Assembly: GCA_003971905.1 (NCBI GenBank)
Contig: RSEE01000077.1
Span: forward strand, 186,001-250,000
Direction: 5' to 3'
Length of the DNA: 64,000 nt
From: Moniliella sp. 'wahieum'
Taxonomy: Eukaryota; Basidiomycota; Moniliellomycetes; Moniliellales; Moniliellaceae
Part shown: piece after piece, positions 596 to 62,118 of the stretch
Position numbering within the stretch: position 1 is the stretch's first letter
How the letters are laid out: each line of letters opens with the position of its first letter
Notes under the pieces: generated by a model
Seen by the model: only the letters and a program-made list of their open reading frames with translations
Database searches by the model: none
Told to the model about the DNA's origin: nothing
Made by a program: the position numbers and the translations under genes

Positions 596-2968
596 ATGTA
601 CTCCTCCCCATCCGCAAGTCCAGCGCCCCAGGCTGCGTACCTCTCTTACCTGAACCAGCAGCACGGCTCGGCCGCGGCTGCTGCCGTTGCCAGCCAATTC
701 CTTCCCCATTCCATGCCGCTGCGCCTGGAAACTCTTCGGGCGCTATGGGTGCCAACGGTCTCTATTCGCGCTACGCTGGCTCGAGTAATACGGGCACCCC
801 CTCGGCCGTCTGGCCGGCCCCACGCAACCTGGCCAGCCAGAGCGGACACCAGCAGCATCCGTCCCTCTCTTCGCTCGTAGGTTCTTCCACCAACGGCATT
901 CCAGGATCACCTGTCAACTATGCTACTGTCCACAGTTCTGCGGCTACACCAAGTACCCGCAACTTTCCCCCACTCAACTCACCTCGCCTCCTCAACACCC
1001 ATTCACCCGCTCACTCTCATGTTGTAGCGAATGGCAGCAGCGCATTGTCGCCTGCCGTGATCAACTCGCCCCACTGGAAAGCCCAGAAGAAAGGTGCAGA
1101 GGTATGTGTTTCCTCATCTTTGTCAGGTTCGCTTGATACTTACTCAGCTTGGCCACCGCCCCAGATATCTCGTCAATCGGGATCCCCGCATCACCACGCC
1201 CGTGCCGCTGCAACAGCAGCACGAACAGCCGCCAACGTGGTGATGCATCCAAGGCTCTCCTACCTGCGAATGGACTCCGCCCTGAGGCTCTCAAGCCATC
1301 TGGATCAACTCCGATGCCGAGTTCAGACGAGCCGGCTAGCTCACCAGCCAAGCGCGCCACCATTCCCGGCAAGATTCCTCCTCGAGAAGTAGATGAGGAT
1401 CAGTCTTGGACCCAACTGGATTTGGGGGGCATGCACCTGCGTGCTCTGGCGCCCGAATTGTTTCGTTACGAATTTTTGACTTCGCTCTTCATCAATCATA
1501 ACGATCTGACCATGCTGACTCCGGAGATTGCCAAGCTCAAGCATCTTGAGGTACTTGACGTATCGCAGAATCGGCTGACACTGCTCCCTCCCGAACTAGG
1601 CCTCTTGCCGACGCTGAAGGAATTGTTCCTATTTGACAACGCGATCACAGTTCTCCCCCCTCAGTTGGGCATGCTGTACCAGCTTGAAATGCTGGGGATT
1701 GAGGGCAACCCGCTGGACATGGAGCAACTCACTGAGATCCAGCAGAATGGCACGGTTGCTCTCATCCACGCTCTGCGGGACAAGGGCCCAATCCCACCTG
1801 AACCCGTCAAGCGAAAGTGGATCAACTTGACGGCCGAAGCCGAGGAGAACGAAGGTCAAGATGAGCAGGACACCTCCCACCTCGACCGCCCCGATGACCG
1901 GAGCGAGACAGTGTGATGGGCTACAATGTTCTGGCTGACAAATTGGCGACCGAGGCGATCTTTGGCTACACCCCCTCCTGGGCCCTGCAATGGGAATACC
2001 GCAAGGAGATCATCGCCAAGGAGATCCACCAGCTTGGGGCCGATATGGTGTGTCTCCAAGAAGTGGGGATGCAACAGTACGACGAGTTTTTTCGCCCCGT
2101 TGCTGCATACGTACGGCTATGCTGGTGTGTATTATGCCAAGTCCCGGATCAAGACTATGCGTGACGAAGAGAAGCGTCGGGTGGATGGGTGCGCTGTATT
2201 CTACAAGCGAGCCAAGTTCCATATGGTGGACAAGTATGTGATTGAGTATGGACAAGCCTGTCTTCAACGAGACGACTTTCGCGCCAGCGAGGATGTCTAC
2301 AACCGCGTCATGCCCCGCGACCAGGTTGGAGTGATCTGCTGCTTTGAGTACCGTGAGTCGGGTGCAAAGCTTATTGTGGCCAACACGCACTTGCACTGGG
2401 ATCCGGCCTACTCCGACGTCAAGTTGGTTCAGTCTGCGATGCTGATGGACGAGCTGCAGAGAGCCTGCAAAGTGTTCTCGAAGCGCAAGACGGACGTTAC
2501 GCTTCCTCCGGGGCGGTTGCGCCTATTTACCCCGATGGCAATGCCGTACCCACCATCCTCTGTGGCGATTTCAACTCTGAGCCCAGCAGGGTGTGTTTGA
2601 ATTCATTTCGACGGGCCAGTTGTCGGGCCAACACGAGGACTTTTGGACAAGACGTATGGCGACGTAACGGTCAAGGGGCTGCAACATGGGCTGCCTTTAA
2701 AGAGCAGCTATGGTGCCATTGGGGAGCTACCCTTCACCAACTTTACCCCCGGCTTTGTGGGGGTACTAGAGTACCTCTTCTACTCGACCGACACGATTGA
2801 GACGACGGCGTTGCTGGGACCATGGACGAAGAGTATGCGTCGAGGTGCGTCGGTTTCCCCGACGCCCACTTTCCTTCCGACCACATCCCTCTCGCAGCCA
2901 AGTATCGTATTCGCCTACCCCTCGACACTAAGGTGATTCGTCCTTCGCCTGTGTCGTCCGATGCGTAG
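596..2968 (+). CDS. CCR4: CCR4: catalytic mRNA deadenylase of the CCR4-NOT complex
   Basis: Ccr4 is the Mg-dependent 3'-5' poly(A) exonuclease of the cytoplasmic CCR4-NOT complex. The N-terminus is Gln/Ser/Ala-rich and carries the fungal Ccr4 block PHHHARAAATAARTAANVV (about 1185-1243). Leucine-rich repeats follow (about 1410-1740, with LKHLEVLDVSQNRLTLLP), then the endonuclease/exonuclease/phosphatase fold: MGYNVLAD, YTPSWALQWEYRKE, VCLQEVG (metal-binding Glu), NTHLHWDP, CGDFNSEP and the C-terminal FPSDHIPLAA catalytic Asp-His. The start at 596 opens MYSSPSASP. An intron fits at 1102-1164 (GTATGT...CCAG). The frame changes near 700-740, 1243, 1911, 2100, 2505, 2580, 2640 and 2822. All but the one near 2100 equal one missing base, and the conserved sequence runs straight across each. 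The family is unambiguous; the exact protein is not recoverable as one open frame. Confidence 0.95.
1102..1164 (+). other. Intron in CCR4
   Basis: GTATGT donor and CCCCAG acceptor, 63 nt. Removing it joins the KAQKKGAE end of the Ser/Pro-rich N-terminus to ISRQSGSPHHHARA, as in other fungal Ccr4 proteins. A second possible acceptor (TACTCAG, ending at 1147) lies inside, so the 3' site is less certain than the 5' site. Confidence 0.7.
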
Positions 2969-4065: not shown

Positions 4066-4970
4066 TCATATTAGGAGGATGATCCGACAGGAGGAGCGAT
4101 CAGGGCCGTGATGGGCCGCGAGATGAGCGGAGAGCCAGCACCGTACCCGACTCGAGTGGGGAGGTGCCATGGTGGTTGTTGGGCATATCGTCCGCGCCTG
4201 CTGGATAGTAGGGCGCTGGTAGAGGTCGAACGGTACCGTCTGCACCGCCTGCACCGCCTGCACCGCCTGCACCGCCTGCACCGCCTGCACCGCCTGCACG
4301 CCTGCACCGCTTCCCGGCACGGCAGGGTACGTCACGCCCATTCCGATGTGCGCGTGAAGCATGTGTTGTTGCATAACGGCGAGTTGGTGGTTGACCTGGG
4401 TCTGCAAAGGGGTGGCATGGAGGCGATGATTTAGTCGGGTTCATGGTTCATGCCTATCAGCAATCCCATCGCGTCCCGGGGTAAAGGGAGGTAAACGGAG
4501 CGTACCGGTACCGAGCTTCGGTAGCCGCATGCCAGGTTTGTCTCTGGCTCTGGTTCTGGAGATGGGTTGGAGGAAGTGTGTGCGCCTGGAGGTGGCGGTG
4601 GTGCGTGGTCCAGCGGGCCCAGGTGGCTTGGTCAACCCCACAGTTGAATCAAGCCTCAAGTTGGCGCCGGGGGGTGCCATGACTTGGAGGCTATCGAGGC
4701 CGGATCCTAAATCGCACATGCCACCATGCCAATGATACAGCATGGTGCGAAGCAACTTATTGGCTCCGCCTCCCGTCGCACCGGCTGCGCCGGGCCAGGC
4801 CAAGGCCATGTCCGTGTCCAAGTCCAAGTCCGTGTCCGTGTGCGGCACTCGCAGATCCACCATGGGGGGCGGCATGTGCAGCGTGGACGCCGGTGCTGGT
4901 GCATGCGGCGGTGGACCGTCGGGACGAGAAGAGCGACAAGGCAAGTACCATACTTGAGCAATGGCAGCAT
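4066..4970 (-). CDS. Tentative low-complexity protein gene
   Basis: I do not recognise this gene. Minus-strand reads look coding in patches: a His/Pro/Gly-rich N-terminal part (about 4940-4450) and, after a possible intron ending in CCCCTTTGCAG near 4409, a block beginning TQVNHQLAVMQQHMLHAHI followed by an (Ala-Val-Gln)n run encoded by a 9-bp minisatellite at 4240-4310. Several frames would have to be joined, as in the secure genes of this window. Gln/His-rich composition suggests a transcription-related protein, but that is a guess. It could also be non-coding repeat sequence. Confidence 0.25.
4240..4310 (+). repeat. 9-bp minisatellite CTGCACCGC
   Basis: About eight tandem copies of CTGCACCGC. 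The penultimate copy (CTGCACGC) is one base short, which breaks the three-codon phase of the Ala-Val-Gln read on the minus strand. Confidence 0.9.
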
Positions 4971-4975
4971 GAAAA

Positions 4976-5046: not shown

Positions 5047-5051
5047 TATAA

Positions 5052-5058
5052 TTTTTTT
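5052..5058 (+). terminator. Pol III terminator of tRNA-Thr
   Basis: Run of seven T starting six bases after the discriminator base of tRNA-Thr. Confidence 0.85.
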
Positions 5059-5288
5059 AGTGTGCGTCTCCCGATTTGTTGAAAGTTGAAATACAGACTC
5101 GCACGACAGGGCACCCAGAGCTGGGACCGACACCTCCACGTCACCTGCTTAATAGCGTCACTAATTCCTGCTCACCGGTGAGGTGACCTTCCACGTGGCG
5201 CTGATCCATGGTAGAGAGGGAAGCGAGGGGTGGGGGGTTGTGAACGTTCACCCCCACCACCACCGCTTCTGTCCCAGGTTGTGCCATT

Positions 5289-5949
5289 ATGAAGTTTGTC
5301 GCTCTTGCTCCTGTGCTGCTGGTTGCCGCGGGGTTGGCCAGTGCAGCGGCGCCTCCGACGTCTCTGCAGATTGGCGTCAAGAAGCGTGTGCGGCGGGCGA
5401 GTGCCTGGTCAAGACGGTGAGCGGCGACCGGGTCGAGATGGAGTACACTGGCCGGTTGTGGGAAGGCGAGCAGTTTGACTCGCCGGGTCGAGATGGAGTA
5501 CACTGGCCGGTTGTGGGAAGGCGAGCAGTTTGACTCGTCGGTGGGACGGGGCCCGTTCGAGTTTGTGCTAGGCCAAGGCCAAGTGGTGCGTGTGCTTTTG
5601 GGTGCTGTTGGGTTGGCAGGAGGGTGTGCTGACGTGCTGACGTGCTGACGGCTGCCTGCAGATTAAAGGCTGGGACCAGGGGCTGACGGACATGTGCATT
5701 GGGGAAAAGCGCAAGCTGACCATCCCACCTGCCTTGGGCTATGGCGAGATGGGCGCGGGGGGCAAGATCCCGCCGGGGGCAACGCTGGTGTTTGATGGTA
5801 CGTGTCTGGGGGGGGGGGGGGGCTGATTGTGTGCTGGGCTGACGCGGGGGGTGTTGGGTGTGGTGTGTGCTGGCCCAGTGGAGCTGCTGGACATCAAGGG
5901 AGCGCGTGCGGATGCACTCAAGTTTGCGCACGCCAAGGCGGACCTGTGA
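5289..5949 (+). CDS. FKBP-type peptidyl-prolyl isomerase with signal peptide (FPR2/FKBP13-like)
   Basis: FKBPs catalyse cis-trans isomerisation of prolyl bonds. The N-terminus [19 protein letters not shown] is a clear signal peptide, pointing to the ER or secretory pathway. Next come LQIGVKKRV, the core [72 protein letters not shown] and the C-terminal [12 protein letters not shown]. Introns at 5586-5661 and 5798-5878 restore the fold exactly. The tail ends in KFAHAKADL with no HDEL-type signal. Two defects break the frame: one missing base near 5387, and a perfect 55-bp tandem duplication (5428-5537) that repeats [17 protein letters not shown] in a second frame. Both look like sequence or assembly faults, because the conserved domain is complete once each is counted once. 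Confidence 0.93.
5428..5537 (+). repeat. Perfect 55-bp tandem duplication inside FKBP
   Basis: Positions 5428-5482 and 5483-5537 are identical. The unit covers the codons for the first core strands of the FKBP domain. Fifty-five is not a multiple of three, so the copy shifts the frame. Confidence 0.95.
5586..5661 (+). other. FKBP intron 1
   Basis: GTGCGT donor and CTGCAG acceptor, 76 nt. It splits VLGQGQV from IKGWDQGL. Just before the acceptor the branch-like CTGAC occurs three times in a row (within 5628-5650). Confidence 0.9.
5798..5878 (+). other. FKBP intron 2
   Basis: GTACGT donor and CCCAG acceptor, 81 nt, joining TLVFD to VELLDIKG. It contains a G run longer than 12 at 5807-5822. 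Confidence 0.9.
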
Positions 5950-6311: not shown

Positions 6312-9300
6312 ATGAGCCGCCTCGGCACGCCCGTCGGCGAACCACGCGCCAAGCATCCCGCCCGCACCACCCGCATCCACCCCGCCCCTCCCCTGCGCCC
6401 GCCGCTGCGCCCGCCCCCGCCCCCGCCCCGCCCCCGCCTCTGCGTCCGCGCCCGCCGCGCCCCCCACCGCCCCCCCACCGCCCCCTCCGCCCCCGCCCTC
6501 CCCCCCGCTCCCCGAGCACGACGTCCCCCTCACCGCCGACCTGCCGCGCCTCGTCGCCTCCCTCCCCCCCGACCAGCTCTCCCGCCTCGCCGCCCTCGCC
6601 CTCCGCGGCCTCACCGACCCCGACACGCGTCTCCGCACCCTCGCTGCCGCCCAGCTGCCCCCGAAGACACCGCCAGCTGCCCGGGGTGGTCGATGCCGTT
6701 CGCGCTCGCATCTACGCCGTGCGCTGCGACCCGCTCGCCATCTTGCCCACCGAGGTCGGCATCCGTATCTTTGAGTTTATCGACCACCCACGCACTCTGG
6801 CCCGTGCTGCGCGCGTCAGCCGTACCTGGCACCGTTTTGCCACCACGCCAGCTGTCACACGTACGCTCGCCCACCGCTTGGGCTTTACCGTGCCTACGTA
6901 CGCGCCTCACTTGCTCACTTCACCTGACCGTACCCGTCGCTCGAATGGCTAGGCATTGGTATCAACAACCAGCCTCGGTTTGTCACGCCTCCGCCGCCCC
7001 CGCGCGCACTGGCGCCCCCACCTGTGCGCGACGACCATTCGTCCAAGTAATCGTGATTGACGATCTTGGATCCCAATCTGTTCCTCCGCTCAGTCGTCGT
7101 CGTCGGTCCGATGCCGACGAGTCCAGTGCCCCGCCGCGGAAACGTCCGCGTCGGTCTGCGCCCAACCCTTCCCGCGCGGCGCCGGAGCCCAAAATCGATC
7201 CGGCCGTGGCGCATCGGGAAGTACTCAATCTTCTCGACAGCCTACAACGTCGTTACGTCGCGACGGGCGTGTCGGTTGAAAGTGATGATGAAACGTTGCG
7301 CATGCTGACCAAGGAGCTTGGGTACCTTGACCGTGCTCTGCGAGCGCGACTTCGTCCGTCGGCGGAATCTCAAATTGGAATGTCACTTCTCGATACGCTG
7401 GAAGGTATTGTCCGTGCTGAATCGGCGCAAAGGAGGGGGATCCCTGTTTGCCACGCGTCGCGTTTTCAAGTCTTCGATTGGACAAGGTGTGGTTGCAGAA
7501 CCTGACGCGCGCCAAGTTGATCGAGTCGCTTTTATTTTTTGCCGAGCTGGGACCAACGTCAGTCAACATGTTTGACACCCAGTCGTTCCTCTCTACCTTT
7601 TTGAGTGCGCCTCGGGATGAGGCCAGAGTGCCAGTTCCTGAAGTTGTCGGCGGTGCGAATGCGGCCGGGGCCAAATGGTCAGGAGAAATCAAACCTGGTG
7701 ACGCAGCCATCCCCCACCCCGGGCAAGCACGGAGGCATCGAGATGGCCAAGGATGCGTCGTAATGGAGAAACCTGCGTATGATGGTAAACAACCGACTGT
7801 GTCGTGTCTCGATACGAAAGGAGGATTGCTGGATACTCTCAAGCCGTCGCCGGAAAATTTAATTTTCGACCTTCCTTCCGAAGGGCAGGAGGTGGCCACC
7901 GTCCCGGGCGCATCCTCGTGAAGCGCTTGCGCTTCAGTATGAGGTGACGCGTGCGTGGCTCGACCGTGGAGGCCTTCTGTCTCAACATTACCTGTACCCT
8001 GAGGTGATGATAACCGACATGGTGGCCGATGACGATCGGATCGTGCTAGGCATGGGCAACAATGCGATCCACATTATCGATGCCCGAACGGGTTGTTGCA
8101 AGAGACGTTGCATGAGCACACGAGTGGAGTGTGCTTGGCGCTTGTACCTCCTTGGCCTAGCTTGCGACCATCGGGATTTGCGGACCAAGTGCCGCGCGAG
8201 GGCATCCCAACGACCAACATGGTCTTGACCGAGTACGATTCTCGTCCAGAGGCTTACCTCGAGGCGTACCCTTCCCCGCTCCTGTCTGCCTCGGAATGGG
8301 AGACGGTACCTTGGCTCCGATCGTTGAGTAGCACCCAGCGCGCCCTGCTACAAGTGTACCGCAGCATTGAGCAAAAGCTACTTGACCATCCTACCTGGTC
8401 GCATTCGCGCGGGAAGATGGCTGATTCCACTGCGGGCCCTAGCAGCTACAGCGGTCGTCGCGGTACGAGCAAGCCCATCTGGAAGCTGGACCGGCATTAC
8501 ACGGACTGGGCGAGCCCGTCTCGAGAAGAGAATGTGCCGCTGATGCTGCGGCGGGATTGGACTGGGCCCGACTCGGTGATGGAAGCTGCGATGGAGACGG
8601 AGCGAGCGGCATGTATGGCCGCTCGCAACACCCAGGGCTTGCCCAATGCGCCTCCTATCACGCAAGAGTCGTTGATCCCCTCGTTGGCGCGCACGCGTGC
8701 TGAAAAGGCGATGGAGTTGGAAAAGTCGTTGGCCAACAAGCCATTGTTAGTTTCAGGCGGGTGTGACCGGACGGTGATGGTGTGGGATTTAACCACCGGC
8801 CAGCTGGTGCACATCCTGCGTGGACATACCGCCACGGTACGATGTGTGTCTCTGCTGAATGTGCGTGGCGTGTTGGCGGTTACAGGCAGTCGGGATCGGG
8901 ATGCACGTTTGTGGGATGTACGAAGCGGGTTGTTGGTGCACACGTTCCGTGGGCACCAAGAATCGATTCGGTGCATTGCCGTGTCAGAGGACTGTGAGGT
9001 GACGTCGGACGGACTAACGATTCCGTTGAATCCTGCTGAAGCGCCCAAGGCGCCTCTGTTTGCCACGGGGTCGTACGATAGCAATGTCCGGGTATGGGAT
9101 GCGGAGACTGGCAAGTGCCTGCACACGTTGCAAGGGCACACGCAGCAAGTGTACTCGATCGCCTTTCGTCGGGGGACGATCGTGACTGGATCGCTTGACA
9201 CGACGGTGCGCGTATGGGATGCGGTGAATGGGTACGTTTTTGTTCAGTCCAGACGCAGCAGCAGCAGCAGCAGTCAAGGGTACGTTTGTACTGACATTAT

Positions 9301-10174
9301 TGATAGCCGTCCTTTGGGTGTACTCAAGGGCCACACGTTGGTGAGTGTGATCACCATCCGTGGCAACATGGTCGTGACAGGCGGGAGTGACGGGCGGGTA
9401 CTGGTGTACGATCTGGACAAGTTTACGTGTATCCACCGTCTCTGCGCGCACGACAATAGCGTTACGTCACTGCAATTTGTACCTGGTCTAGCGCGGGGGT
9501 TGATTCCGCAATACTACCTTGCGCGTCGACGTGCGAGCCAGCGGCCTCGGAACGAGCGTGGCACAGCAGGTGCCGGTCTGAACCCGCCTGCGTGGGGCAC
9601 GGTGGACGAGGAGTACTGGAGCTACGATCCCGAGTCGGACGATGCGCGTTGGCTCGTATCAGCCAGCAACGATGGGACGACCAAGTTGTGGGACTTGGCC
9701 GACGGAGTGTGCGTGTGCGTCACATTGGTCCAACAAGCAAGCATGTACTCAAGTTTGTCTGTACCAACGACCGAGCTGTGATCGCGTCTTTCCCGTGACG
9801 CATCCCATGCCGCGGATCGAGCGGTCGCGGTTGGACATTGCTCCTTCCGCCCCTGAGCACCAAGGCGAAACGCTGGCTGGTAGTCAAGTCGGGAAGCACA
9901 AGTACCGAAAGCGGGACCGAAGCGGGCGTGGATGGCGAGGAGACGTGTCGCAGTCCTGGGGTCTTCCGCGTCCAGCCGCGCGTCCTCACCCGCACCCACG
10001 TCCAGGCCTGCGTCTGCACTTTGGCGCAAGGGATTCGTGGATGCTCCACCCGCGGCAGTCTGTGGGCGAGGAGGATGGGGACGAGGCAAGTGCGGGACAG
10101 GAGGGGAGGACGAGGACGAAGAAGACGAAGAGGACGAGGACGAGGAAGAGAGTGAGGCCAAAGTCAATGTGTGA
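6312..10174 (+). CDS. F-box/WD40 protein, Cdc4/Pop1-like SCF substrate adaptor
   Basis: Such proteins bring phosphorylated substrates to the SCF ubiquitin ligase. The N-terminus is Pro-rich (start MSRLGTPVGEP at 6312). A helical block LPRLVASLPPDQLSRLAALA precedes the F-box (about 6728-6890: LAILPTEVGIRIFEFIDHP, then VSRTWHRFATTP). The WD40 propeller starts near 7995 (MITDMVADDDRIVLGMGNN) and includes SGGCDRTVMVWDLTTGQLVH, TGSRDRDARLWDVRSG, TGSYDSNVRVWDAETGKCLH, TGSLDTTVRVWDAVNG and SASNDGTTKLWDL. Between F-box and propeller lies an unusually long insert (about 7094-7900) with a basic RKRPRR patch and helical sequence. A 47-nt intron fits at 7047-7093. One-base-loss shifts occur near 7470 and 8090, and others elsewhere. 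The first stop after the last WD repeat is 9798, but two more such shifts would carry the frame into an acidic tail ending EESEAKVNV at 10174, so the 3' end is uncertain. Confidence 0.85.
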
Positions 10175-12541: not shown

Positions 12542-12550
12542 AAAAAAAAA
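12542..12550 (-). terminator. Pol III terminator of tRNA-Glu
   Basis: Nine A on the + strand, hence nine T on the transcribed strand, starting right after the discriminator base. Confidence 0.9.
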
Positions 12551-12638
12551 TTCCCCAACCGGGAGTCGAACCCGGGTCTTCACGGATCAGACCGAGCGTC
12601 TTGAAAGCGTGACATCATAGCCGTTGGACCATTGAGGA
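12551..12638 (-). tRNA. tRNA-Glu(TTC) with 16-nt intron
   Basis: On the minus strand, acceptor TCCTCAA pairs with TTGGGGA (one T-G wobble), followed by discriminator A. The D-loop AACGGCTATGAT, anticodon stem TCACG/CGTGA, loop CTTTCAC with anticodon TTC, and T-arm CCCGG-TTCGACT-CCCGG are canonical for fungal tRNA-Glu. A 16-nt intron (AGACGCTCGGTCTGAT) sits one base 3' of the anticodon, the standard eukaryotic position. The mature form is 72 nt. All stems are intact, in contrast to tRNA-Thr. Confidence 0.97.
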
Positions 12639-12889
12639 GTGATGTGTAGTTCTCGCAACAGAAGCCCAACTGCATTCACTCAACGAGTAGATTTGTAATT
12701 CCCCTTCCGCCCGGGCCAAGTTTCAAAATTGGCATTACTAAGAAAGAAGGCGAGACTGCGCTGGTGCCTTTATTTACCTTGGCTATCATCCTGAGCCTGA
12801 CCACGCCTCGGTCCCGCTTAGTCCTGGTCCTACCAGCAAGAGCAAGCGCGTCCCGACCGCCTTCTTGGTCTCCACCGTCCTCCTCCATC
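12639..12889. promoter_or_regulatory. Divergent spacer tRNA-Glu / QCR9
   Basis: This short 250-bp spacer acts as upstream region for both the tRNA (-) and QCR9 (+). I see no gene in it and no motif I can name with confidence. Confidence 0.4.
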
Positions 12890-13375
12890 ATGGCTCTGTC
12901 CCGCAGCATCTACAACGTGCTCTTTAAGCGCAACCCCGTCTTGTACGTCCTCTTTCTCCGTGATGGCTGGATGGTTCCCTGCGGAGGCGCAGCTAACGCC
13001 CAAGTTCGGCACAGTGTGAGCGCTTGCTTCTTTGGCGGCTTTGCCTTCATGGTTGGCTTTGACCAGGTCACTACGGCCTGGTGGGACAAGCACAACTACC
13101 CCGTACGTTACCGTTACCGTTACTCTTTTCCCCTTGTGCTTCATGCCTCATGCTTCATTATGCCCTCCCGCCCACATCGATCGACCCCGCGCGTTGGTAC
13201 GAGCACCGGGTCAATTGCCCTGCGGGCGCGGGGGTGGGGGCGCCTTGACAGACACCCTTGTTACCGATTTGGGGGGACGAGATGACTGACCCAGTTTGTG
13301 TTCTTCTGTGTCCAGAAGCAGTGGAAGGACTTGCGTGGCAAGTACCTTACCAGTGCTCCCGAGGAGGAGGAGTAA
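12890..13375 (+). CDS. QCR9: QCR9: subunit 9 of cytochrome bc1 complex (complex III)
   Basis: Qcr9 is a small single-helix subunit of ubiquinol-cytochrome c reductase in the mitochondrial inner membrane, needed for stable Rieske/cytochrome c1 assembly. Three exons (12890-12942, 13015-13102, 13316-13375) give a 66-residue protein, the length of yeast Qcr9. It starts MALSRSIYNVLFKRNPVF, has a membrane segment VSACFFGGFAFMVGF, then WWDKHNYPKQWKDLRGKYL and an acidic APEEEE end. Intron 1 has a GTACGT donor, a perfect GCTAACG branch site (about 12992) and an ACAG acceptor. This is one of the few genes here with no frame disruption. Confidence 0.96.
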
Positions 13376-14069
13376 GTAACTAGTAACGAGTAACTAGTAA
13401 TCTCAGATGGTCTAGCCCCTGTCGTTTCTCCATGGTAGACGGGAGAGCGACTGCTGCTCGTTCCTGCTATGATCGTCACTGCCCAATCGCACGCGCCTCT
13501 TTGAATTCGACAGGTAGTCCCTCGTGAGGGAGGAGACGGAGAGACTGGTCTCAGGAGGCAAAGGGGAGTAGCCTAATGGTGCACGCATACGCCGCAGCGC
13601 GAGAGGAAGAGATGCGGCAGGTATGTTGATTTCGGGGATCTGCCCTACTTGGCGAGAGAGTGGGGCGGCCGGGCGGGAATTTGACGGCGATGATGATCGA
13701 TTGCGCTATGGTCAGTGGTATGGGAGTAGAGAGCCATTTGGTTGATCCTGCCCAGCCAGAGCAGGCAGGCGGTGTTGCGGGGATGCGCGCGGCGTAGGCT
13801 GAGCGCTGTCGCTTGTGTCATGGTGCCATGTGCCATGCAGGAGATGCAGGCAAGTGTGACGTGGCGCTCATTAATCAGTCCAGCATCAGCCCCTGATTAT
13901 CTAATGCTTACTTGGCTGCGGATGGGTTGTCAGTTGAAATGTTAGTCAATCGTTAAACGTTACGAGGCGAAACGAGCTAAACGCCGACCAACATCAGCCC
14001 TGCTCTCGCGCCCACCGGGAGCATCTCCAATCGCATTCACATTCGCATTCGCATTCGCATTCGGAGTCT
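13376..14069. other. Intergenic region
   Basis: No gene seen. Two copies of GTAACTAGTAA (13376-13387 and 13390-13400) lie directly at and after the QCR9 stop. A short CATTCG hexamer repeat (about 14036-14062) ends just before the start of the Zn2Cys6 gene. Confidence 0.5.
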
Positions 14070-17000
14070 ATGCCCGACACGGCGCCTTCCACTGCGGCCC
14101 ACTTGCCCCCGCCGCCCTCCCATCCGCGTAAGCGAGCTGCCGATGCCCACGATGACGACAGCCCAGAGTCCGCTTCGCCCTCTCCTGCCTCGGGCAAGAC
14201 GCCAGCTCACCCCCCTGTCAAGGCCGCGTGTCTGTTCTGCCGATCTCGGTCCGTGCTTCCTCTCCTGCCTCACATGCCTGTCCCCGCGCCCAATTGACCC
14301 AATTGACCCTCTTGACCCTCTTGACCGCGTGACCCTCTTGACCCTGCTTAGGAAATCCAAGTGCGACGGACAGAGGCCATGCAAGACATGCATTGCTAGG
14401 AAGCGCGAAGATGAGTGTGTCTACACCGCGTCGAGGCGTGGTGCGAAGCGTCGGATGATCGACCCCACCGAACTGCGTCAGCATCTGCAAGAGCTCTTGG
14501 GCCTGAGCTCGTTGCCGAATGACATTCGCGTGCCTGGCCGTGTGGCGCAACTGCAACCGTTTCAGCGGTCCGACTTGAGTTCCATGAGTTCCTACGAGCT
14601 CGCCTTGTTGCAGGAAGCCATTCAAGCTGAGCGTGCACGCCAGCAAAGCGCAAATGTCACCGCGCCATCTGGGAGCAACATCAAGGCGCCTTCACTTCCT
14701 TCCTCTTCTTTGGTGTATTCGTCGGGACGAGGAGCTTCTACAACCCCCCCAGCCACCTACTTCCCTTGCGTTCCAGACAACCTTTTGCCCCGCCCTCAGT
14801 GCCCAATGCGCTTCCACCACCCGACGCGGGAACTGCTGCCGACTGCTCCGACCTGCGTACTCTTGTAGCTGGTGCGTTGGAGAAGCTGAACGTGGAGGAG
14901 AGCGTCGCCATGCAGCAGCAGTTGGCTCTCCACACTCTTGACCCACTTGTTACGGGACCGGGTGGAACGAGTGGATCGGCACCTATTCCTGCTGGCACCG
15001 GTGTCCAAGACGCATTTCAATTTACCTTTCCATCCACCTCGGTGAATTTGGTTCCGTCCCTGCCCGAAGGGAGGGGCGTGCCTCCACAAGGACCCAACCA
15101 ACTGGATCGGTTGGCTCCCTTGGCGGCTCAAGTGATTCAGCAACAGAGTCAGAGAAGAGCGGGGTCCGTCTCGGCTTACGACCCTACTGCCACTCGACTA
15201 AGCAGCCCTGATCGTACTCGTGACCTGCTCACCTCGTTTTACCTTCATCTGTACTCGTTCCTGCCCGTCTTACTGCCCCCACCACCTGGAGACATATGTG
15301 GGATGGTATAGCTCTCACCGCTCACCGTTCCTCTTGGCCTTAGAGGCCGTGCTGCCGTTCCTGGAGGACAAAGTGGAAGAAGAACCATGCGAAGGGCCTG
15401 ACGCGTTCAACTCGTCCTCTCGCCAAGCGCGTCGTCAGTCTGCTGCCCGCTTTGCGCGCCAAGCTGGCGATGCGATCGAGGAAGCTCTGGGGCGATGGAA
15501 GAGCAAGCCGATTGGGGCGTCTTGTTGGAAATTATCCAAGCGTTGGTCATCTTGTCGATTTTCGAGTACGGTTCGGGCCGGGCCGTCAAAGCGCGGATCA
15601 AGGCGGACCAAGCACTGAGCTTGGCCATGTCTCATGGTCTGCATCGTATGTCGTCCCTACCTGCGTTTGAGGCGCTGGTATCCCCCGATCTCAGCCGCCT
15701 CCTCCACCTCATCCCGTACCTTGTTGGGCAAGTTTTCCGCCCCGCTCCTGTTCGAGATGAGTAAGCGGATTTGGACGGCCTGGACAGGGTTGTTTTATGC
15801 CTCGTTCAATACGGGCAAGCTCTTGACCATCTCTGCGGATGATCCAAGGGTTACCTCTGCCTTGCCCTCGGGAACGGGCATGGCAGCGGAAAATGAGTGG
15901 GAAAAGCATGTTTCCACTCTTCGGTTTATGTTGTTGGTGCAAGAGCGTGTATCGGCGTTTGTGCAATCGCTTTCGCCCGATACGGAGCAGCCCACTCCCT
16001 CACCCGGACCTACGTTTCACGACCCCCTGGCGCCCAGTTCGGTTTTCTCACCTTTTCCACGACGAGTGGGAGTCGTGAGCATCTGGCGGATAGTATGCGT
16101 TCGATCGACAAGGCGTTAGGGAAGCAAATTGAAGAGCTGGAGAAACAGCCACTTCCATGGCACTTGCCCACCTTCCAAGGTCGGCCCAAGACCCTGCTCC
16201 AAGTCGAGAAGCCTGTCGAGTTACATGCGGTTGATGAATTCAGGCCAGCTCTGGGCTGGTTGTGTCTCCATCTGTACTCGGCACTGCAAGGTGCTTCGAT
16301 ATTCGAACGCAAACTCTGTTTCCTCAAGTGCATCCCAGATGAGAAACCTAAACCTACGCCCCATCCCACTCCGTCCGTGTCCAGCCCCCCAGCTGATCAG
16401 ACCCCAGCCACAGCTGCTACCCTACCTGCTACCGTACCTGCTACCGTACCTGCTACTGCCCTCGCCGTACCTACACCCGCACCCGGCACGACGTCAATCA
16501 CTTCCGTTCCGGTCCCTGGACTGGACGTGTTCAGTACAGTTTTTGCGCCGGACACGTTAGCTGCCGACTTGGAGCCGGCTGTAGGGCCAGTGGAAGCAGG
16601 TTGGGCTTGGGACGACCTGGACCAGCTCACGGCCCAGCTCAGTACGGAGCTTCCGCAAGCTGCGGATACGGATTTGATGGGCGATTGGTTGTTGCGCATG
16701 ACCGGCCTTACCGCCCCGAACGGGGTGGACGTGGAGGGGAACGGGACGGAGGTGGTAGAGCCCGTTTCAGGGGCGCAGGCCACACAGGCACACAGGCAAC
16801 ACGGGCAACACAGGCCACACAGGCTACACAGGCTACACGCCTACCATTAGCTGCCGAAGCCGAGACGTCGCCAACATGGTTACCAGAAGTGGTAGGCAAG
16901 CCGAGGGGGAGCACCCGTTCGAAGCGCGCTACTCGCTGGAGCGGTGCGTGTACGCGTCGAAGCGTCTTCTCGAGGTGCTAGGTCACGAGCAACTGATGGT

Positions 17001-17353
17001 CAATCCGTATTTGGCATGTGAACATGTCTTGGCGGCATTTACGTTGCTGGTACAAGGTTGAGCGTCAGTACCAATCTGGATGCGAGCGAGGTTGTGCAAG
17101 GTAATGGGATGGGGCTGGACCTGATCCAGTCGGCCGAGCAGTCAGCTGCCCTGTCTCGCCCCGAGATGGCAGCAGCAACTTATCGCCCGACCGACAAGTC
17201 GTCTTGAGCCAAATTTGGTTCCATGTCAGTCGCATTCATGCTGCGCTCACCCGCCAAGCGCACCACTGGGACATGGTCGTCCCAATGGCTCAGGAGGTAC
17301 AAGTTTGTCTGCAGACGAGCGAGATGTTGTTTGACCAGTCGCAGAACGCATGA
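14070..17353 (+). CDS. Zn2Cys6 (fungal-type) transcription factor with MHR domain
   Basis: This is a nuclear DNA-binding regulator. The binuclear cluster is split by an intron (14249-14351): KAACLFCRSR joins KSKCDGQRPCKTCIARKRED and EC, giving all six Cys. A linker with helical LAPLAAQVIQQQSQRR follows, then a fungal transcription-factor middle homology region (about 15220-17350), including LLTSFYLHLYSFLPVLLPP, VILSIFEYGSGRAVKARIKA, RIWTAWTGLFYASFN, ALGWLCLHLYSALQGASIFE and CVYASKRLLEVLGHEQLMV. A Pro/Ala/Thr-rich and acidic insert (about 16340-16860) interrupts this region. The frame must change several times. A stop at 17207 exists in one frame, but a one-base shift continues into the amphipathic end SQIWFHVSRIHAALTRQAHH, stopping at 17353. 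The regulated pathway cannot be told from sequence. Confidence 0.9.
14249..14351 (+). other. Intron splitting the Zn2Cys6 cluster
   Basis: GTCCGT donor and GCTTAG acceptor, 103 nt. It contains repeated TTGACC/TTGACCCTC units (about 14297-14345), which supply several branch-point-like TTGAC sequences. Splicing joins CRSR to KSKCDG. Confidence 0.85.
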
Positions 17354-17772
17354 CCTTCCCGTCTTGGTTCGGCTTGGGCTTAGGCTTGGCCTTGCGCTTC
17401 GACTTGGCTTTGCCCTCCACTCCTCGTACAGGATGGATGGATATGGATCCACAAGTACACATTGCATGCCTAACGGATTTAAAGGACGGAAAGGGGTGCA
17501 GAAGCGGGTATCAGAGCATCCATTCGTAGCAGCTCAGAGCAGGGGGGTGTCTGTGCGTGTGTGTGTGGCGGCGACCGTTTTGTCGAGACGGCCTCACCAG
17601 AAAACACTACACCTCATCGCCATGCCGATGAGGACCAACGCTGGTCTCGTCAGGCCTCAGGTCCGTGCTGACGCATACCAGGCCTTGACGAAGGCGCAAC
17701 TCTTCCCTCATCGACTCGATCATGGACCGGTATATACCTGCCGAAACGCAAATGCAATGCAATAAGGAGTTT
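17354..17772. other. Convergent spacer
   Basis: 3' flanks of the Zn2Cys6 gene (+) and ISC1 (-). A short TTGGCTTxGGC-like repeat occurs near 17367-17410. No gene supported. Confidence 0.5.
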
Positions 17773-19258
17773 TTATGAGTTTGAGCCGGCGTTTTGCGAC
17801 TGGAGCAGAACGTACGTTTTTCCCACTCGCCCCAGATGAGGCCCGTGTAGAGGAACGTGGTGCCGGCGGCGCCTGAAGCGAGCGCCAAGCAGGTCAGCAG
17901 GACGCGCATGGGCGGTGCAGGATGCGAAGCCAGGCACAGGAGTACAGCCAGGGCGAGCGTAGTGCCAAAGCCGGAAAGCCATCGCAGCTGGTTCGTTTTG
18001 GCCTGCTCTAGCCACACGAGGGCTGCAATGCATGAAGTGAGGCAGTCAATGGCAGCTGTAGCGTCCGGTACGTCGTCGGTGGGGTGGGTAACGTGTGCGC
18101 TTCCTTGATGGCGTGGTAGGCGCCGAAAGGGCAAACGTGGCCTCGACACCAAAGTGATCCGAGACGTTGAGGTTGAGGGGGGGGATAGGCTGTGTGCATG
18201 TAACGGAGCATGCGAGCGGGATCAACAAGCTCGGGGACGAAACAGAAGAAAAGCCAGTGCATACGGTACCGCGCATACAGGGCGGAGTGTAGTAGATGTA
18301 ATCCAGACGTTTGCCTGCGCCCGCCAAGGCGCGTGGGTCCAGTGGTTTTCCGGCGGTCCATGAGTTGAGGGGAGAGTCACAGGTGACGCCGAGCTGGGTC
18401 AGTGCGCGAGCTGGATCAGGCGCCCCAGTGACGTCCCCCAGAGGACGAGGTAACGAAACGGCCATCTCGGGCAGATCTGGGTGGAGAGCAAGGAAGGTAT
18501 CCGTCAATCCCCCACGTGGCGCAGCAAGCGAGCCGAGAGCGAGGGCGGGGTGCAGTTCAAATCGCCCATCTGCAGGAAAAGAACAGGGGGAAGTGTCAGC
18601 TGCCCCTCAGAGCCTTCGTGTGGAAGAAAGAAGCGGGACAGAAGAGCGCCGGAGGGAGAGTGAGGGGGGGGGGGGCGGGGGGGGACGTACAACGAGAACA
18701 TGGCGACCTTGCTCGGCGCTATCCCGGGCCCATTGGGCCAGTTGCCAAGTTTGGGTGATGCGGGGAGATCGGGTCCATTCCGGTCCGTCCTCTCCACCTG
18801 CAGCGACAGTATGGGTGATCCAAACGTCGAGGCCCTGGGGCAGTCCGGGCACGGCAACCGTAGCGCATCCGGCACCTTTGCCTACAATCCAGTCCCCCCT
18901 GGCAACAGCAGCTGGCAGGCCATTGTAGTCGTAGCTGATGGAGCGCGTGCGTAGGATGGGGAAGCGGCTGAAGAGCGCAAGGCCCATGCCCCAGGCTCCG
19001 CCATAGAAAAACTTGCTGTACGGGAGGCGGGTGGACAGAGCGGCCTGCAGCTGGACATAGTCCACGTGTGATACCCACAGCTCCTGCAGCCCAACCAGGT
19101 CGTACTCGCTCTCGGCGAGCGACTGGGCGATGGCCCGCAGACGCATCTGCTTGTGTGGACAAGGGCTCAGGAAGGCCCCACACATTGAGCGTCAAGACGC
19201 GCAGCTGCGTGGGCGCCGGTGTGGGCACGCTGGAAGCGCCAGCAGGGGCAGCGGCCAT
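17773..19258 (-). CDS. ISC1: ISC1: inositol phosphosphingolipid phospholipase C / neutral sphingomyelinase
   Basis: Isc1 hydrolyses complex sphingolipids to ceramide in ER and mitochondrial membranes. Visible in order: QLRVLTLNVWGLPEP at the N-terminus (start 19258), LVGLQELWVSHVDY with the Mg-binding Glu, FFYGGAWGMGLALFSRFPI, the GDLN motif (after an intron with GTACGT donor and TGCAG acceptor, about 18690-18570), KRLDYIYYTPP, and the catalytic SDHFGVEATF. The C-terminus carries two hydrophobic helices (about 18000-17830: TTLALAVLLCLASHP and LLTCLALASGAAGTTFLYTG), as in yeast Isc1. Frame changes occur near 19150, between the GDLN exon and the following block, and near the end. The last read finishes LLQSQNAGSNS at 17773. 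The gene is divergent from the secreted lipase. Confidence 0.93.
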
Positions 19259-20384
19259 GATGGATGGTGGGGTCCAAGCCGCCTAGCCCGTAGTTACTTG
19301 TCCGCCTGAGATGCAGCTGAGCCTCAGGACAGCTGGCTGTAGTTGGTACTGAGTGGAGCCTGCGCAGGGCCTGCTCGCTAGCTTTCCGATTTCAGAGAGA
19401 TCTCTCAAATCCAGCGTGGAGCTTCACTTGAAGCTCCGAAGCAGGAACCCAGGTCACGTGTGTGACATCTGATCACATGTGTGAGGGGTGATGTGCAATC
19501 CCATTGGTGGTGGCTGCACACGTGCGTACGTACACGTGTCACGTGCCCCTGGGACGAGACGGACGAGGCAGAGGGATCTTCGATCTGCGCATTCTGACAC
19601 GGGCGGCGTGGGGGCGGGGGACTGGGCTGGTGCCTGCCCCAGCACACTGGCCCCTGACAAGTTGACAGGGCGCGAGCCGAAAGAGGGGGCTTGCCTCAGT
19701 CGCCCCCTGCGGGTGGGGTGCGCAAATCCCTCGCAGGCGCTACAGTGCCCCCCGGCTCGAGGGCGAATTCCGAGCCAGGCGCAGAGGCAGGGCGGTGCGT
19801 GTGTGTTGGGTGCTCGCGGGGCGCGTGGCATGGGGCCAGTCGACAGCCCATGTGGAATGGCGCTGGGCAGGGCAGCAGCCACGCCATGGGGGGGGCACGA
19901 GGCCGCTGCGTCTGCGCGGTGCCTGAGCGCACAAGCCTCCGCCTGCTGTTCCCGCTCGGCGCGCCCTGCGCTGCGACACTGGCCCCACGCCTGCCCCAGC
20001 GCCAGCCGCACGCGCAAGACGTACGATCCACCGCACACGGCAGCCCGGCAGGGCTCCCTCCAGCATGCAGCATTCAATGTTCAGGCCCAGGCTTCGCTCG
20101 CCGAGCCGCGAGGCACACCGCAGACAACCCCACCTGTCTTTCCTAACCCTCTCTCCGCCCCGCAATCCCTCTCCGCCCCGCTTTGCCTGCGGAGACAACA
20201 CCCACGCTTCTCCTCTTCTAGCCCCACCACCACCACCTCCTCCTCCTCCTCCATCCCCATCCCATCCCCATCCCCCCCCCCCACGTTCTTTACTTCCGTT
20301 GCCTTCTGCCTTCGGCCCACCTTCGTTACCGGTTACCCCCGCTCCACTCGGGCGTACACCTCCCACCCTGACCCTTGTCTCACC
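19259..20384. promoter_or_regulatory. Divergent ISC1/lipase promoter region with four CACGTG boxes
   Basis: Four perfect CACGTG palindromes lie within 91 bp (19455-19460, 19519-19524, 19533-19538, 19540-19545), plus TCACATGTGTGA-like sequence at 19473 and an inverted CCAAT (ATTGG, 19503-19507). This is the binding pattern of bHLH proteins (Cbf1/Pho4 type), and TCACGTGTGTGA resembles SREBP sites. The cluster is 200-290 bp from the ISC1 start and about 840-930 bp from the lipase start. The long + frame across 19488-20380 is not supported as a gene. Just before the lipase start the DNA is C/T-rich. Confidence 0.55.
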
Positions 20385-21952
20385 ATGCGCGCTCCCTGCT
20401 CCTTCTTTTCGCCTGCACGCTCCTCGCCGCCCTCGCCGCCCTCGCCGCACCTCCGCCCCTGGAACGGGGCGTTCTGCTTCGTCGCGTCAACAGCTCCGCC
20501 ATCCCCCCCCCACGATCGGATCCTTTCTATGTCCGCCTGCCAACATCAGTCTACAGGCCGGGCGATGTCATTCGCCATCGGGTCATCGATGCCCAGTACA
20601 AGATCTCTGGCGCCGGCCGCACCACCCAGATCCTCTACCGCACCACCAACACCTTGGGCCACCTTCTGCCACCGTCACCACTGTAATCGAGCCTGCTCGG
20701 GCACCCTGCCGCGTATGCTCTCCTACCATATTTGGGAGGACGCGACCAATCGCGACTGTGCACCTTCCTATACCATCCTCCAGGGCAACAACGCCCCCAA
20801 CATTATGGTCCTCGGTATGTTGACTCCTTCCCCCCCCTCCCCCCTCCCCTCAACGTCCCTTGTTTTTTGCTTGTTTGACTGACAGCAGTCCTTCTTCGTA
20901 CGTGTGCCGCGCGCTCAGGTGATGATGTCCCAGTCTGGTGGGCGTTCCTCCTGGCCAATGGAATCAGTGTGGTGGTGCCCGACTACGAAGGGCCCAAGTC
21001 TGCGCTCTTTGCTGGCTTCCAAGCGGGACATGCCATCCTCGACTCGGCGCGTGCGGTAAAGAATCACCTGAACTGGCCAGCAGACGCTCGGATTGCGATG
21101 ACAGGGTACTCGGAGGGGGCGCACGTAACTTGCTGGGCGGCCAACCTGGCGCCGTCGTATGCGCCTGAACTCAACATTGTCGGTGCGACGCATGGTGGCA
21201 CACCGATCGATATGGAGCTTACCCTGCGTCACTTTGACAACACCTCCTTCTCGGGCTTTACGTTGGGTGGCATGCATGGCATGATGGCCGCCTACCCCAA
21301 ATTCAACCGTACCATTACCCAACACGCGCAGCAACGCGTGCTTACCGATCTGGCTACCATCTACGCCCCACCCGTTTGCCACGCCATTCTACGCGGGCCC
21401 CAGTTCGCCAACATTCCTTACATGGAGATGCTCAACCTACCTAGTGGCGACCCGTACAACGATCCCGTCGTGCGCTCCGTGCTCAACCGCGAGACAATGT
21501 GGAGCAACAAGTCGTCTGTGGGCGTAGGATACCCCAAGTTCCCCGCATGATCTACCAAGGTCGTCATGACGATGTGATTAGCTACGATGCAGTGCAAGCC
21601 TATGTCGACCAGCAATGTTCCCAGCCCGGCGTGCAGATCCAGTTCAACATATACGAGGCCAATGCGCACACGGCGCCGCAGTGGTCATTGGGGGCGACTT
21701 GAATGCGATGCAATTTGTGTTGGAAGTGATGGAGACCAACGGTAAGTTCCGCACGCCTGTACCGTGTGGCACACCTACGCCTTCCCTTCTCAACATAGCA
21801 ACTGGGGGCTGGACGACATTCTCGGTGGCAACATTTCAGCTGGTTTGCAAACGCTGCAAGCGCAGGCGGCCAATGTGGGCTTTGGCAACCTTGGCTTTGG
21901 TGATTTTGGCACATTTATCGAAAAGACATTGGAAGAACTGTTCCAGCCTTAA
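20385..21952 (+). CDS. Secretory lipase, LIP family
   Basis: This is an extracellular triacylglycerol lipase of the Candida/Malassezia LIP type. The start codon at 20385 is followed, after one missing base, by the signal peptide LLLLFACTLLAALAALAA. The mature part has SDPFYVRLPTSVYRPGDVIR, YHIWEDATNRDCAPSYTILQ, VVVPDYEGPKSALFAGFQAG, the nucleophile motif TGYSEGAH, the acid region IYQGRHDDVISYDAVQAYV and the His in YEANAHTA, so the Ser-Asp-His triad is complete. An intron near 20815-20918 joins MVLG to DDVPVWWAFLLANG, and another lies at 21742-21798. The last exon, NWGLDDILGGNISAGL to EELFQP, ends at 21952. The frame shifts, each equal to one lost base, near 20393, 20660 and 20715. Function as a nutrient lipase is family knowledge. 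Confidence 0.92.
21742..21798 (+). other. Last intron of the lipase gene
   Basis: GTAAGT donor and ACATAG acceptor, 57 nt. The flanking exons encode LEVMETN and NWGLDDILGG. Confidence 0.75.
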
Positions 21953-23505
21953 CGGTCGGTCAAGCAGTGCTTCTCCTTCCATTAACCATCCCCACCCTCC
22001 CACTCGCGTTTCCCACCAGGTATCCTATCCTACTCTGGCCCTCCTTCCCTCTCTGCTATCTTGGTTCATATCCCTTCGTTGTATACTCGCAAACTGTTCT
22101 TTCTACTTTTTTCAGTCTGCGATATCGATATCTACCCCCGCTTTTGCCACTCCTTGATACTATCCCTCTTCGCCTCTACCCCGTTGCGCATTTCCTCCTA
22201 GCCTCGTCTCGAGGTGCAGACATTGAATTGGTCGTAGGAATGGGTAGTCCCTCCTATTCGTATCTGTACACTTGACAGTGTGTTTGTGTTTGGCCTAAGT
22301 GCTAGGATATGGCTACAGTAAGTAGTGTTTTTTTCTGGTCCCTCAACGTTCAACATGCTTAACATTGCATACTCAACATCCTTAAACCTTAGCCCATGAG
22401 GGGTTGCATGTTGAAGACCCGCATGTGGTTTGGCCCGTACGTTTGCCAATCCATGGCAGTCCCTCGATCCGTCCCTCAGTCTGGAGATCTACAAGCTCCC
22501 CCCGATCCCATGCGCGCAGCCCGAACAGGAGAGCTTGATGAACCACAAAGTTGAGGGGTACTTTGTTACCTTGAAGGGGCAGAGTCCACTCACAGTTGAT
22601 CGAGCTTGGACGCCGCTCTGGGCGATCTGAACGGGGTAGAGACGATTGAAGCGAGGCCTCAATTAGGGCGTCGGCTCGAGGCATGGTAGCAACGGTGCGC
22701 ATGCCCCGAAACGAGATGAGGACTATAGTAGCGTGCCTGTAGATCACAACTTGTGCACGGTTGGGACAGTTGAGCAAGGCAAGACTGAGTAGGACAGGTG
22801 CTCTCGTGCCGACAGCTCGAGACTCTATAGGTCGCTGCGGGGTCCATACAGATGAGACTGAAAGTTGGAGACCGACAGGGATGCCTGGAGGAATGAAGAC
22901 GGAATTGGGCAAGACCAATGGGGTCGCTGCCATGAAGTAGGTCAGTGGGACTGCTGGTGAGCTATTGGGAGGGAGTACGCGTGTGTTGTGGTGGGGTTTA
23001 AGGATGGAAGTGCAATGTTGGTGAGGCACTTCATGGCTGCAAGGCCTGCTGGGGGGGACGGGACATGGATCAAAAGAGGCCATATCAACAAGGTCAACTA
23101 TCTACAGGTAAAATCTATCAGGAACAGGCAACGCAAATAGAGAGGAAAAGGATTCCGTGTGGCTTCAGCAAGGAGCACAGACCTAAGTATAAGGAAAAGT
23201 TTCCATACCCTAGGACCCGGAACAGTGAAACCCGTCAGAGAGGCCCAAAGTAAGGGGCAGAGGTTTTCCCCCCTTGTTCTCTAGTCTCTGCAGCGCTGCA
23301 GCTCCGGTGCAATACACCGTCAACGTGTCAACTGAGCTCTCTGGTCTTACACGTTAGGCAGGGATAATCGAGATATCGAGATCGACAATCGAAGGGAACC
23401 TCTTGGTCGCGCGCAACGCCCAACAGCGTCCATCCCTTGTACTTGCGTCGCGCCTTGGGCGTTTACTAGTTTTTACTACTCGTACACAACCCAACGGTCG
23501 ATCTT
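21953..23505. other. Intergenic region after the lipase
   Basis: C/T-rich 3' flank to about 22200, then unremarkable sequence. A 233-codon open frame on the minus strand (22382-23083) has no domain, no clear codon pattern and no neighbour logic, so I do not call it a gene. A CTCAACGTTCAACATGCTTAAC block lies at about 22338. Confidence 0.45.
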
Positions 23506-23572
23506 AAGCTTCAAGTCAAGCTTCAAGCTTCAAGCTTCAAGCTTCAGCTTCAAGCTTCAAGCTTCAAGCTTC
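23506..23572 (+). repeat. AAGCTTC heptamer array
   Basis: About nine copies of AAGCTTC (HindIII-containing), slightly irregular. A shorter copy of the same motif recurs at about 45545-45560. Confidence 0.9.
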
Positions 23573-25718: not shown

Positions 25719-29302
<3,584 letters not shown>

Positions 29303-37754: not shown

Positions 37755-37942
37755 TGAGCGCCAGCGACCAGTGTGTAAGGGAGGCGGCACTCGTGGCGAC
37801 CTCGTGTGCAAGCACAAGCGATGGAAGCCGAAGACGCAAAGAGTGGAATGACAAGTACAGCTGGGCAGTGCCCAGCGTAACAGTTGTCAAACTGTTAAGA
37901 ACAGATACTACACTTGATCTAAGCCAGAAGGCCAGAAGAGTT
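37755..37942 (-). ncRNA. U2 spliceosomal snRNA
   Basis: The minus strand reads AACTCTTCTGGCCTTCTGGC, then TTAGATCAAGTGTAGTATCT and GTTCTTAACAG. This is the invariant U2 5' domain: the U6-pairing segment, stem-loop I, and GUAGUA, which pairs with the intron branch site. GGCTTAGATCAAG matches the yeast form. A stem-loop II (GCTGGGCACTGCCCAGC) follows at about 37861-37877. A possible weak Sm site (ACTCTTTG) lies near 37840. The 5' end at 37942 is good to a few bases. The 3' end is only estimated from the usual length of about 190 nt. It is the RNA partner of the short CTNAC-branch introns seen in the window. Confidence 0.93.
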
Positions 37943-59800: not shown

Positions 59801-62118
59801 CATCTGGCTCGGAGGATGGAGAGGTGAGGGCGGATCCTGATTTGGATGGGGCGGATAGCGATGAATCTCGACCTGGTTGGTCCCGTACTTCGCCCGCCAG
59901 TCGTTTATCAGCACCGCCAGTTCTTCCATGGAACCTAGGGAGCGTGGACGCGGGGACAGCGAGGGTGCAGAAGAGGAGGATCCGACTCCGATGCTCAGCC
60001 AGGTCTCCATCCCTTCGGTGCCAGGCCAAATTGGCGGACCATCTATTCCGACCAGTGGGGCGGTCCGAGCCGCACCGTCCAGTGCAGCCGATGATGCTTC
60101 CCGGTTCCCTCTTGCTTTTGGCAAGAAGAAGGCGCGGGCCAAGGAGCCGGTGTATGTTCCCTTGCCAGATCTGTTCATCGCTTCTTCACTGCTGTCGTGG
60201 CTCACTCGGACACCGACTTCATGTCGGCCCTGCTGGTGTTCTATCGTGCTTTTGCCTCGCCCGAGTTCCTCCTTTCTGCATTTATGGCTCGGTTCAAGGA
60301 CCTGGCCGACGATGAGACTCAGTTGCCAGATGGTCTTGCTGATGCTCCGTCAAGCAAAGCGCTCGATAACCCAACTTTGGTTCACCATGCCCTCGCTCGC
60401 CTCGTCACTGTCTTCCAAGAGTGGGTCCGTCAGTTCCCCGGAGATTTTCGGCCCCCACAATGACCGACTCGCTGGACACGTTTGTCATGCGCATCAGTCA
60501 AAATCAAGCCACGACAAGTATGGTGCCCGCATTGAAATCGGACCTGCAGCTCTGCCAAACGGCTATCGACTTGGACGTGATGTGGTCCGTTGATGCGTCG
60601 GCGGCGCTCTTGGTTTCCCCCTCGACTTGGGCCGAAGTGGGAGCGTCCGAATCAGCCGCGGTACGCCATGACGCCTACCGTAACTCGGTGCTTCTCTCGT
60701 CGTCAGGCCAGAGAAGGAGGATCCGTCGACCACGTCGGCTAAGCAAGCGCTCGAAGCGCTTAGCCCCTCTGGACTTTCGATGTTGGCCCCCGCTGCTTCG
60801 ACAAGCGGAACAGCTCTTCTTCTGGTGTTGCCGACCTGGCTCCCACGAACCCCGCCTCGACTGCCCCCGTAAATGGCGTCCCTCCTAGTTTGAGGTTGAC
60901 CACGTCGGAAGCGGGCCAGCGCGCTCGCAGCTCGTCTGTTCTCACAGCCTCGTCGGGACAAGGGAGTGTGCAGTCATGCTATACCGCTGGTTCGGGCCCA
61001 TCGGAACAAGGTTCATCCAAGACTGTTGGCAAAGAGGGCGTACCGGAGGAGCAAGAAGAATTGACGGAACCACGCCCTTCGCTGCATCCCATCGTGCCTG
61101 GTGGCATCCACGGACCAATACAATGTCCTCTACCTCAACCACGGGAGCTTACTCGGTAAGCAATGCGTCGACCTCCACATCGGCCACCTCGGTCGCTGTG
61201 CCCCCGAATGGGCGATCGGATCGCCCACCGCAGGTCTCGACCTGCCTTCCGAGAAACAGTCGTGACGCTGCGGACGATATCGAATGCGGTCCTGGTGGCC
61301 GACGAGGGTGCGTTGGCGGAAGAATTGACACGGGTAGAGTGGAGCCTGTTCGCGGTGATTGGCCCACGTGATTGGTTGCGCCATGCGTTGGTCAAGCCGC
61401 GCATCGCATCCCGCACGGCTCGGTCGCTCAGAGCATCGAATTCTTCAACTACACCTCGGCCTGGGTTGCGTCATCATCCTCGCCCAACCTAAATTGAAGA
61501 CCCGTGCAAAGGCGATGGAGAAGTTGATCCGAGTCGCGGTGCGGCTGCGGATGCTGAACAATTACAACACTCTCTATGCCGTTCTGGCCGGCTTGGCCAG
61601 TACCTCGATCCATCGGTTGCGGCACACACGTGCCATCGTGCAAGAAGATAAGGAGCTGAACAAGCGTCACCTCTCTCTTGCCCGCCTTATGAAGCCCGAC
61701 CGTGCTTCGGCGGCGTATCGGTTGGCATTGGAGAATTCGACGGGTCGATTATCCCCTTTATTGGCGTGCATCTGCACGACATTTTGTCCACCGCCGATGG
61801 CAACCCATCGCGGCGTGCGTCGGATGGGGCGGTTCACTGGCGCAAGTTTGCCCTGATGCATGATGCCATCTCGACGTTAACCAAGTCCCAAAGTGCTGAT
61901 ACGAGGGCGCCGGTAGAGCACTCGGACTTGACCAGGCTCATTGTTGACGTACCCATCATGGAAGAAGACGTGCGTATCTACTCTGTCGGCGTGGTTTTTG
62001 TTGATGGGATACTGACTGACCATTATCGATGTAGGTGGCCTACCACACCTCCCTCGCCCTCGAACCCAAGTCGACAGGAGCGGCCCAGACACTTCTGCGC
62101 AAAATGCAGGGCTCGTAG
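56818..62118 (+). CDS. RasGEF: Ras-family guanine nucleotide exchange factor
   Basis: Exchange factor that loads Ras-type GTPases with GTP. The N-terminal 3 kb is disordered (start MLLKDAFKSGGQSLLALGPD, then Ser/Pro/His-rich). A RasGEF N-terminal motif follows at about 60190-60460: DTDFMSALLVFYRAFASPEF, ALARLVTVFQEWVRQFP, DTFVMRISQNQATTSMVPAL. The catalytic Cdc25-like domain is at about 61270-62050: IEFFNYTSAWVA, KLKTRAKAMEKLIRVAVRLR, MLNNYNTLYAVLAGLASTSI, ELNKRHLSLARLMKPD, IPFIGVHLHDILST and HSDLTRLIVDVPIMEEDVRI. The end, VAYHTSLALEPKSTGAAQTL then LRKMQGS, stops at 62118. An intron at 59203-59252 (GTATGT...TTCAG) is supported. One-base-loss shifts occur near 60185, 60455, 61400, 61460 and 61755. 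Which Ras-family GTPase it serves cannot be read from sequence. Confidence 0.92.
59203..59252 (+). other. RasGEF intron
   Basis: GTATGT donor, TTGCTGACG branch site and CCTTCAG acceptor, only 50 nt. Confidence 0.8.

Follow-up and report, generated by a model that had tools for sequence, protein, structure and literature searches.

In Euplotes, reading frames shift at many places throughout the genome while the genes are otherwise whole, and the published description places these shifts at stop codons, which specify +1 or +2 (PMC10235951). Gene-breaking indels are also well known as a fault of long-read assemblies, as described in three reports (PMC8445201, PMC12007338, PMC8812927). The stretch of DNA analysed here, 64,000 nt from one contig (G000:C77:186001-250000) and referred to as the window, is reminiscent of Euplotes in the number of its shifts and in the otherwise whole genes that contain them. 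Judged from the sequence, the repeated frame steps would almost certainly be single-base deletion errors of the draft assembly, and they are best explained as a problem of sequence quality involving no new biology.

The assembly consists of 69,493,810 bases (69.5 Mb) in 223 contigs. When the CCR4 stretch of the window (positions 1400-2950) was used to query it, four more copies were detected, on contigs C8 (98%), C39 (83%), C15 (83%), and C34 (74%). For comparison, segments were retrieved from C8 (70 kb), C39 (70 kb), and C15 (60 kb), and C34 was used for CCR4 only. Nearly the whole window is collinear with C8, while only parts of it are matched by C39 and C15. In these two contigs positions 12551-29299 of the window appear in inverted order, indicating that the two pairs differ by a rearrangement. 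The four-copy alignment comprises 11 conserved blocks with 13,601 gap-free columns, which take in some introns and untranslated ends. Over these blocks, identity is 97.4% between the window and C8, 97.2% between C39 and C15, and 76% between the pairs. The copies form two near-allelic pairs, and most gaps are attributable to a single contig. Two such pairs (97% within, 76% between) are present together with a fifth CCR4 copy at 74%; the genome may be that of a hybrid or a duplicated diploid.

In six gene spans, introns and linkers included, the window shows a total of 55 one-base gaps relative to C8; in the reverse direction, C8 is without 23 other single bases that the window has. A first-pass annotation of the window had described repeated steps of the frame in one direction in nearly every long gene, almost all of them equivalent to missing bases, and these counts bear it out. 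Gaps of two to five bases are also present, the single missing base being the commonest event and not the sole one. The first span, on the plus strand at 596-2948, contains a CCR4-like gene with leucine-rich repeats followed by an endonuclease/exonuclease/phosphatase domain (Pfam LRR_8 matched in the window, Exo_endo_phos in the C39 and C8 copies). It has seven gaps relative to C8, six of one base and one of four, and the one extra base reported earlier near 2100 was recovered at 2092-2100 in the five-copy alignment. An FKBP-like gene (plus strand, 5282-5947), whose name stems from the first-pass annotation alone, has one one-base gap. A 55-base tandem duplication at 5428-5541 within this gene is found only in the window and in none of C8, C39, and C15; it may represent a true allele or reflect misassembly. 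The F-box/WD40 gene (plus strand, 6312-9892; Pfam F-box-like and WD40) shows ten one-base gaps, and over this span C8 in turn is missing ten different single bases. Three were detected in a secretory lipase gene (plus strand, 20860-21942; LIP, PF03583, 127 bits), 27 in a protein kinase-like gene with its linker and C-terminal part (plus strand, 25880-29293), and eight in a RasGEF gene (plus strand, 60300-62118). Of the approximately 26 shifts placed initially, those in CCR4 (8), FKBP (1), and lipase (3) fit these numbers, while those in F-box/WD40 (2), kinase (at least 7), and RasGEF (5) were too low. Genes on the minus strand are affected as well, contributing 7 of 76 gaps in the window and 15 of 49 in C8. 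In the aminotransferase gene (minus strand, 29860-30983; Pfam Aminotran_1_2, 20.8 bits), 12 single bases are missing in C8 versus five in the window.

The consequences for the encoded domains are apparent from profile matches. In the window, the kinase domain is recognised in two pieces (profile positions 4-41 and 188-263 of 263) lying in separate open frames, both below the curated cut-off, and RasGEF is represented by two partial Pfam matches in different frames (profile positions 56-156 and 147-180; four open frames searched). The comparison with intact relatives suggested by the first-pass annotation was performed on the near-copies inside the assembly: in C8 a single open frame of 444 amino acids specifies the entire RasGEF domain (profile positions 2-180 of 181, 155.9 bits). 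Likewise, the CCR4 gene of C39 has an open frame of 450 amino acids carrying Exo_endo_phos (66 bits). The CCR4 nuclease domain of C8 itself is broken over two open frames, showing that C8 is not clean either. Bases missing from the window are found where the assembly holds further copies of these genes, and those copies are without different bases. Together with losses outside the conserved blocks and in a U2 RNA gene, this speaks for deletion error in the assembly, the cause already preferred at first pass.

Comparison of the four copies with each other allowed losses to be attributed. In the 11 conserved blocks, one-base deletions private to one copy, the other three having the base, number 33 in the window, 25 in C8, 30 in C39, and 44 in C15. 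Private one-base insertions are much rarer (1, 3, 6, and 9, respectively), and private three-base deletions amount to 5, 0, 1, and 3. Real coding variation would favour lengths of three; with 132 one-base versus nine three-base private deletions over the four copies, the excess of frame-shifting events is far beyond chance. Counting private deletions of any length, 48, 31, 41, and 59 were obtained for the window, C8, C39, and C15, corresponding to one per 283, 439, 332, and 231 columns. For 80 of the private one-base gaps (132 in total), the remaining copies all have an identical letter at the site (24 in the window, 16 in C8, 16 in C39, and 24 in C15). The private one-base deletions compare with only 11 one-base gaps common to two copies; 58 complex gap events and 33 events common to two copies were kept outside the private counts.

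The private losses depend on sequence context. Their frequency per 1000 bases is 1.66, 1.71, 5.37, 4.34, 13.53, 12.82, and 20.41 for homopolymer runs of one to seven bases. Dominance of indels, preference for homopolymers, and frameshifts in otherwise intact genes are shared with long-read assembly errors as portrayed in the reports cited above. In comparison with these, two features differ, the strong predominance of deletions over insertions and the location of 79 of the 132 private losses in runs of only one or two bases, and a long-read origin of the present assembly is no more than probable. Over 61,899 aligned bases, single bases are missing at 339 places in the window and at 195 in C8, totals in which a few gaps may be counted twice because aligned pieces overlap by up to about 40 bases. 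Relative to C8, the window has 2.96 one-base gaps per kb inside 12 conserved blocks and 6.37 per kb elsewhere, and true differences between haplotypes must account for some of the latter. An array of 9-base repeats at 4235-4310, read from the sequence, contains one unit that is one base short.

On the preferred reading, the shifts are consensus errors, each contig having lost single bases and, less often, two to five bases. Private deletions in the conserved blocks occur once in 230 to 440 bases, varying with the copy, and the risk is higher where a base is repeated. Any lost base moves the frame in the same direction, so that genes on both strands appear to step alike. The source of the errors could be reads of low accuracy, probably long ones, without enough polishing, and near-identical haplotypes may have made matters worse by splitting the coverage.

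Some observations do not fit purely random error. The lost base is skewed: the window is without C at 137 places and without G at 75 (p = 2e-5), and C8 without G at 77 and without C at 29 (p = 3e-6). In the four-copy blocks the window again lacks C more often than G (16 versus 6), while the numbers are about equal in C8 (5 and 4). Such a skew would not be expected if both strands had been read equally, and it counts against error that is random throughout. By contrast, the clumping of the C8 gaps is a mark of sequencing error: over 16 bins of 4 kb, the variance-to-mean ratio is 7.4 in C8 and 2.3 in the window. Between 28 and 32 kb of the window 40 one-base gaps of C8 were counted versus one between 32 and 36 kb, as if local coverage or polishing had changed.

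Gaps common to two copies deserve separate consideration. Among the two-copy events with a length not divisible by three, eight one-base gaps are common to C39 and C15. By inspection, three of them look truly shared inside genes, in FKBP near 5357 and 5555 and in the kinase linker near 28798, where chance, as estimated from the private counts, would give about 0.1. In the linker, both contigs also lack two bases near 28639, which makes three together with the gap near 28798. Of the other five, one lies in a tRNA gene, one adds up to 18 with a 17-base gap, and three are misaligned private events. The window and C8 also have common one- or two-base gaps near 5860, 7439, and 20888, which were counted against random error. 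The gaps shared by C39 and C15 require an error that recurs, a change that was inherited, or a consensus that is shared. One could imagine that most shifts are errors while the few common to these two contigs are genuine, inherited frameshifts, tolerated or read through; this combination is considered improbable, if somewhat less so than the alternatives below. Shared gaps and the C/G skew point to a component of error that depends on context or strand, or to a few genuine changes, and they do not make biology a workable explanation of the shifts as a whole.

True pseudogenes or real heterozygous frameshift alleles would also leave broken frames, and with several copies of the region the loss of one might be tolerable; the approximately three gaps common to C39 and C15 could be read in this way. 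All four copies, however, are broken at comparable rates and mostly in different places, and the genes do not show the relaxed selection expected of pseudogenes. Substitutions between the window and C8 fall on codon positions 1, 2, and 3 in 7, 4, and 36 cases (five stretches), and those between the window and C39 in 67, 46, and 358 cases (four alignable stretches). This excess at third positions indicates that the genes are under purifying selection. In RasGEF, positions 61420-61740 are even free of substitutions relative to C8 in 321 sites, yet a one-base gap is located inside and others are nearby. Decay of the genes is therefore very unlikely to account for the shifts, and a minority of the gaps may be real lesions.

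Genome-wide ribosomal frameshifting of the Euplotes type, in which many slips per gene would still yield a whole protein, could explain why the frame moves in one direction many times per gene and why protein similarity runs on across the shifts. In that case a stop codon should be found at the sites, and translated sequence only should be concerned. To place the gaps in codons, the longest open frame was taken as a rule of thumb, and 119 of 125 could be placed. If reading continues in the original frame, a stop is reached 0 to 330 codons beyond the gap, and the distance is zero in only two of the 119 cases. No stop or codon shared by the sites was found among the 119 placed cases. Codon positions 1, 2, and 3 are hit 21, 16, and 35 times in the window (n = 72), an uneven distribution that counts against purely random error, and 17, 17, and 13 times in C8. 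In contrast to Euplotes, the sites here differ between copies of one gene, no stop or common codon marks them, and they are not restricted to genes. Gaps extend beyond coding sequence, as seen from the higher rate outside the conserved blocks and from one copy of the untranslated U2 RNA. In addition, C8 needs no shift to encode the full RasGEF domain. Programmed slippage on this scale is hardly credible here.

The window contains an entire U2 spliceosomal RNA gene (minus strand, 37749-37942), and nine matches to it were obtained in the assembly. In an alignment of seven copies, the C39 copy is without three bases. Judging by span, another of the nine matches, on C4, is short by one base, and a C16 match is truncated. 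The U2 evidence is thus mainly one three-base loss. In this copy (C39:220025-220215) the missing bases directly precede the stretch that recognises the branch site. Matches to 5S rRNA were of varied length. 5S pseudogenes are common, and neither the 5S matches nor the list of tRNA genes was counted as evidence.

Insertional RNA editing, which would restore the missing bases in the messenger RNA, would account for events that are nearly all missing bases with C the commonest in the window (137 of 339), but editing would concern one or few letters at sites kept between copies, while here all four bases are lost, the commonest one varies by contig, sites are mostly private to one copy, and regions outside the conserved blocks are hit more, leaving it an equally negligible chance. 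Introns are ruled out, as stated at first pass, by adjacent aligned codons bordering the gaps on both sides.

With single-base deletion error in the draft assembly as the preferred reading, gene calls, domain counts, and pseudogene counts derived from this assembly should be regarded as unreliable until it is polished. The analysis also illustrates that near-copies in a single assembly can separate such errors from biology without any reads. A search for the flagellar family IFT46 gave no match, and the controls gave none either. Among other matches, a 'fungal' zinc cluster was recognised (PF00172, 23.9 bits), and an opsin is encoded on C8 with entry 7bmh as its best match among solved structures; both fit a fungus.
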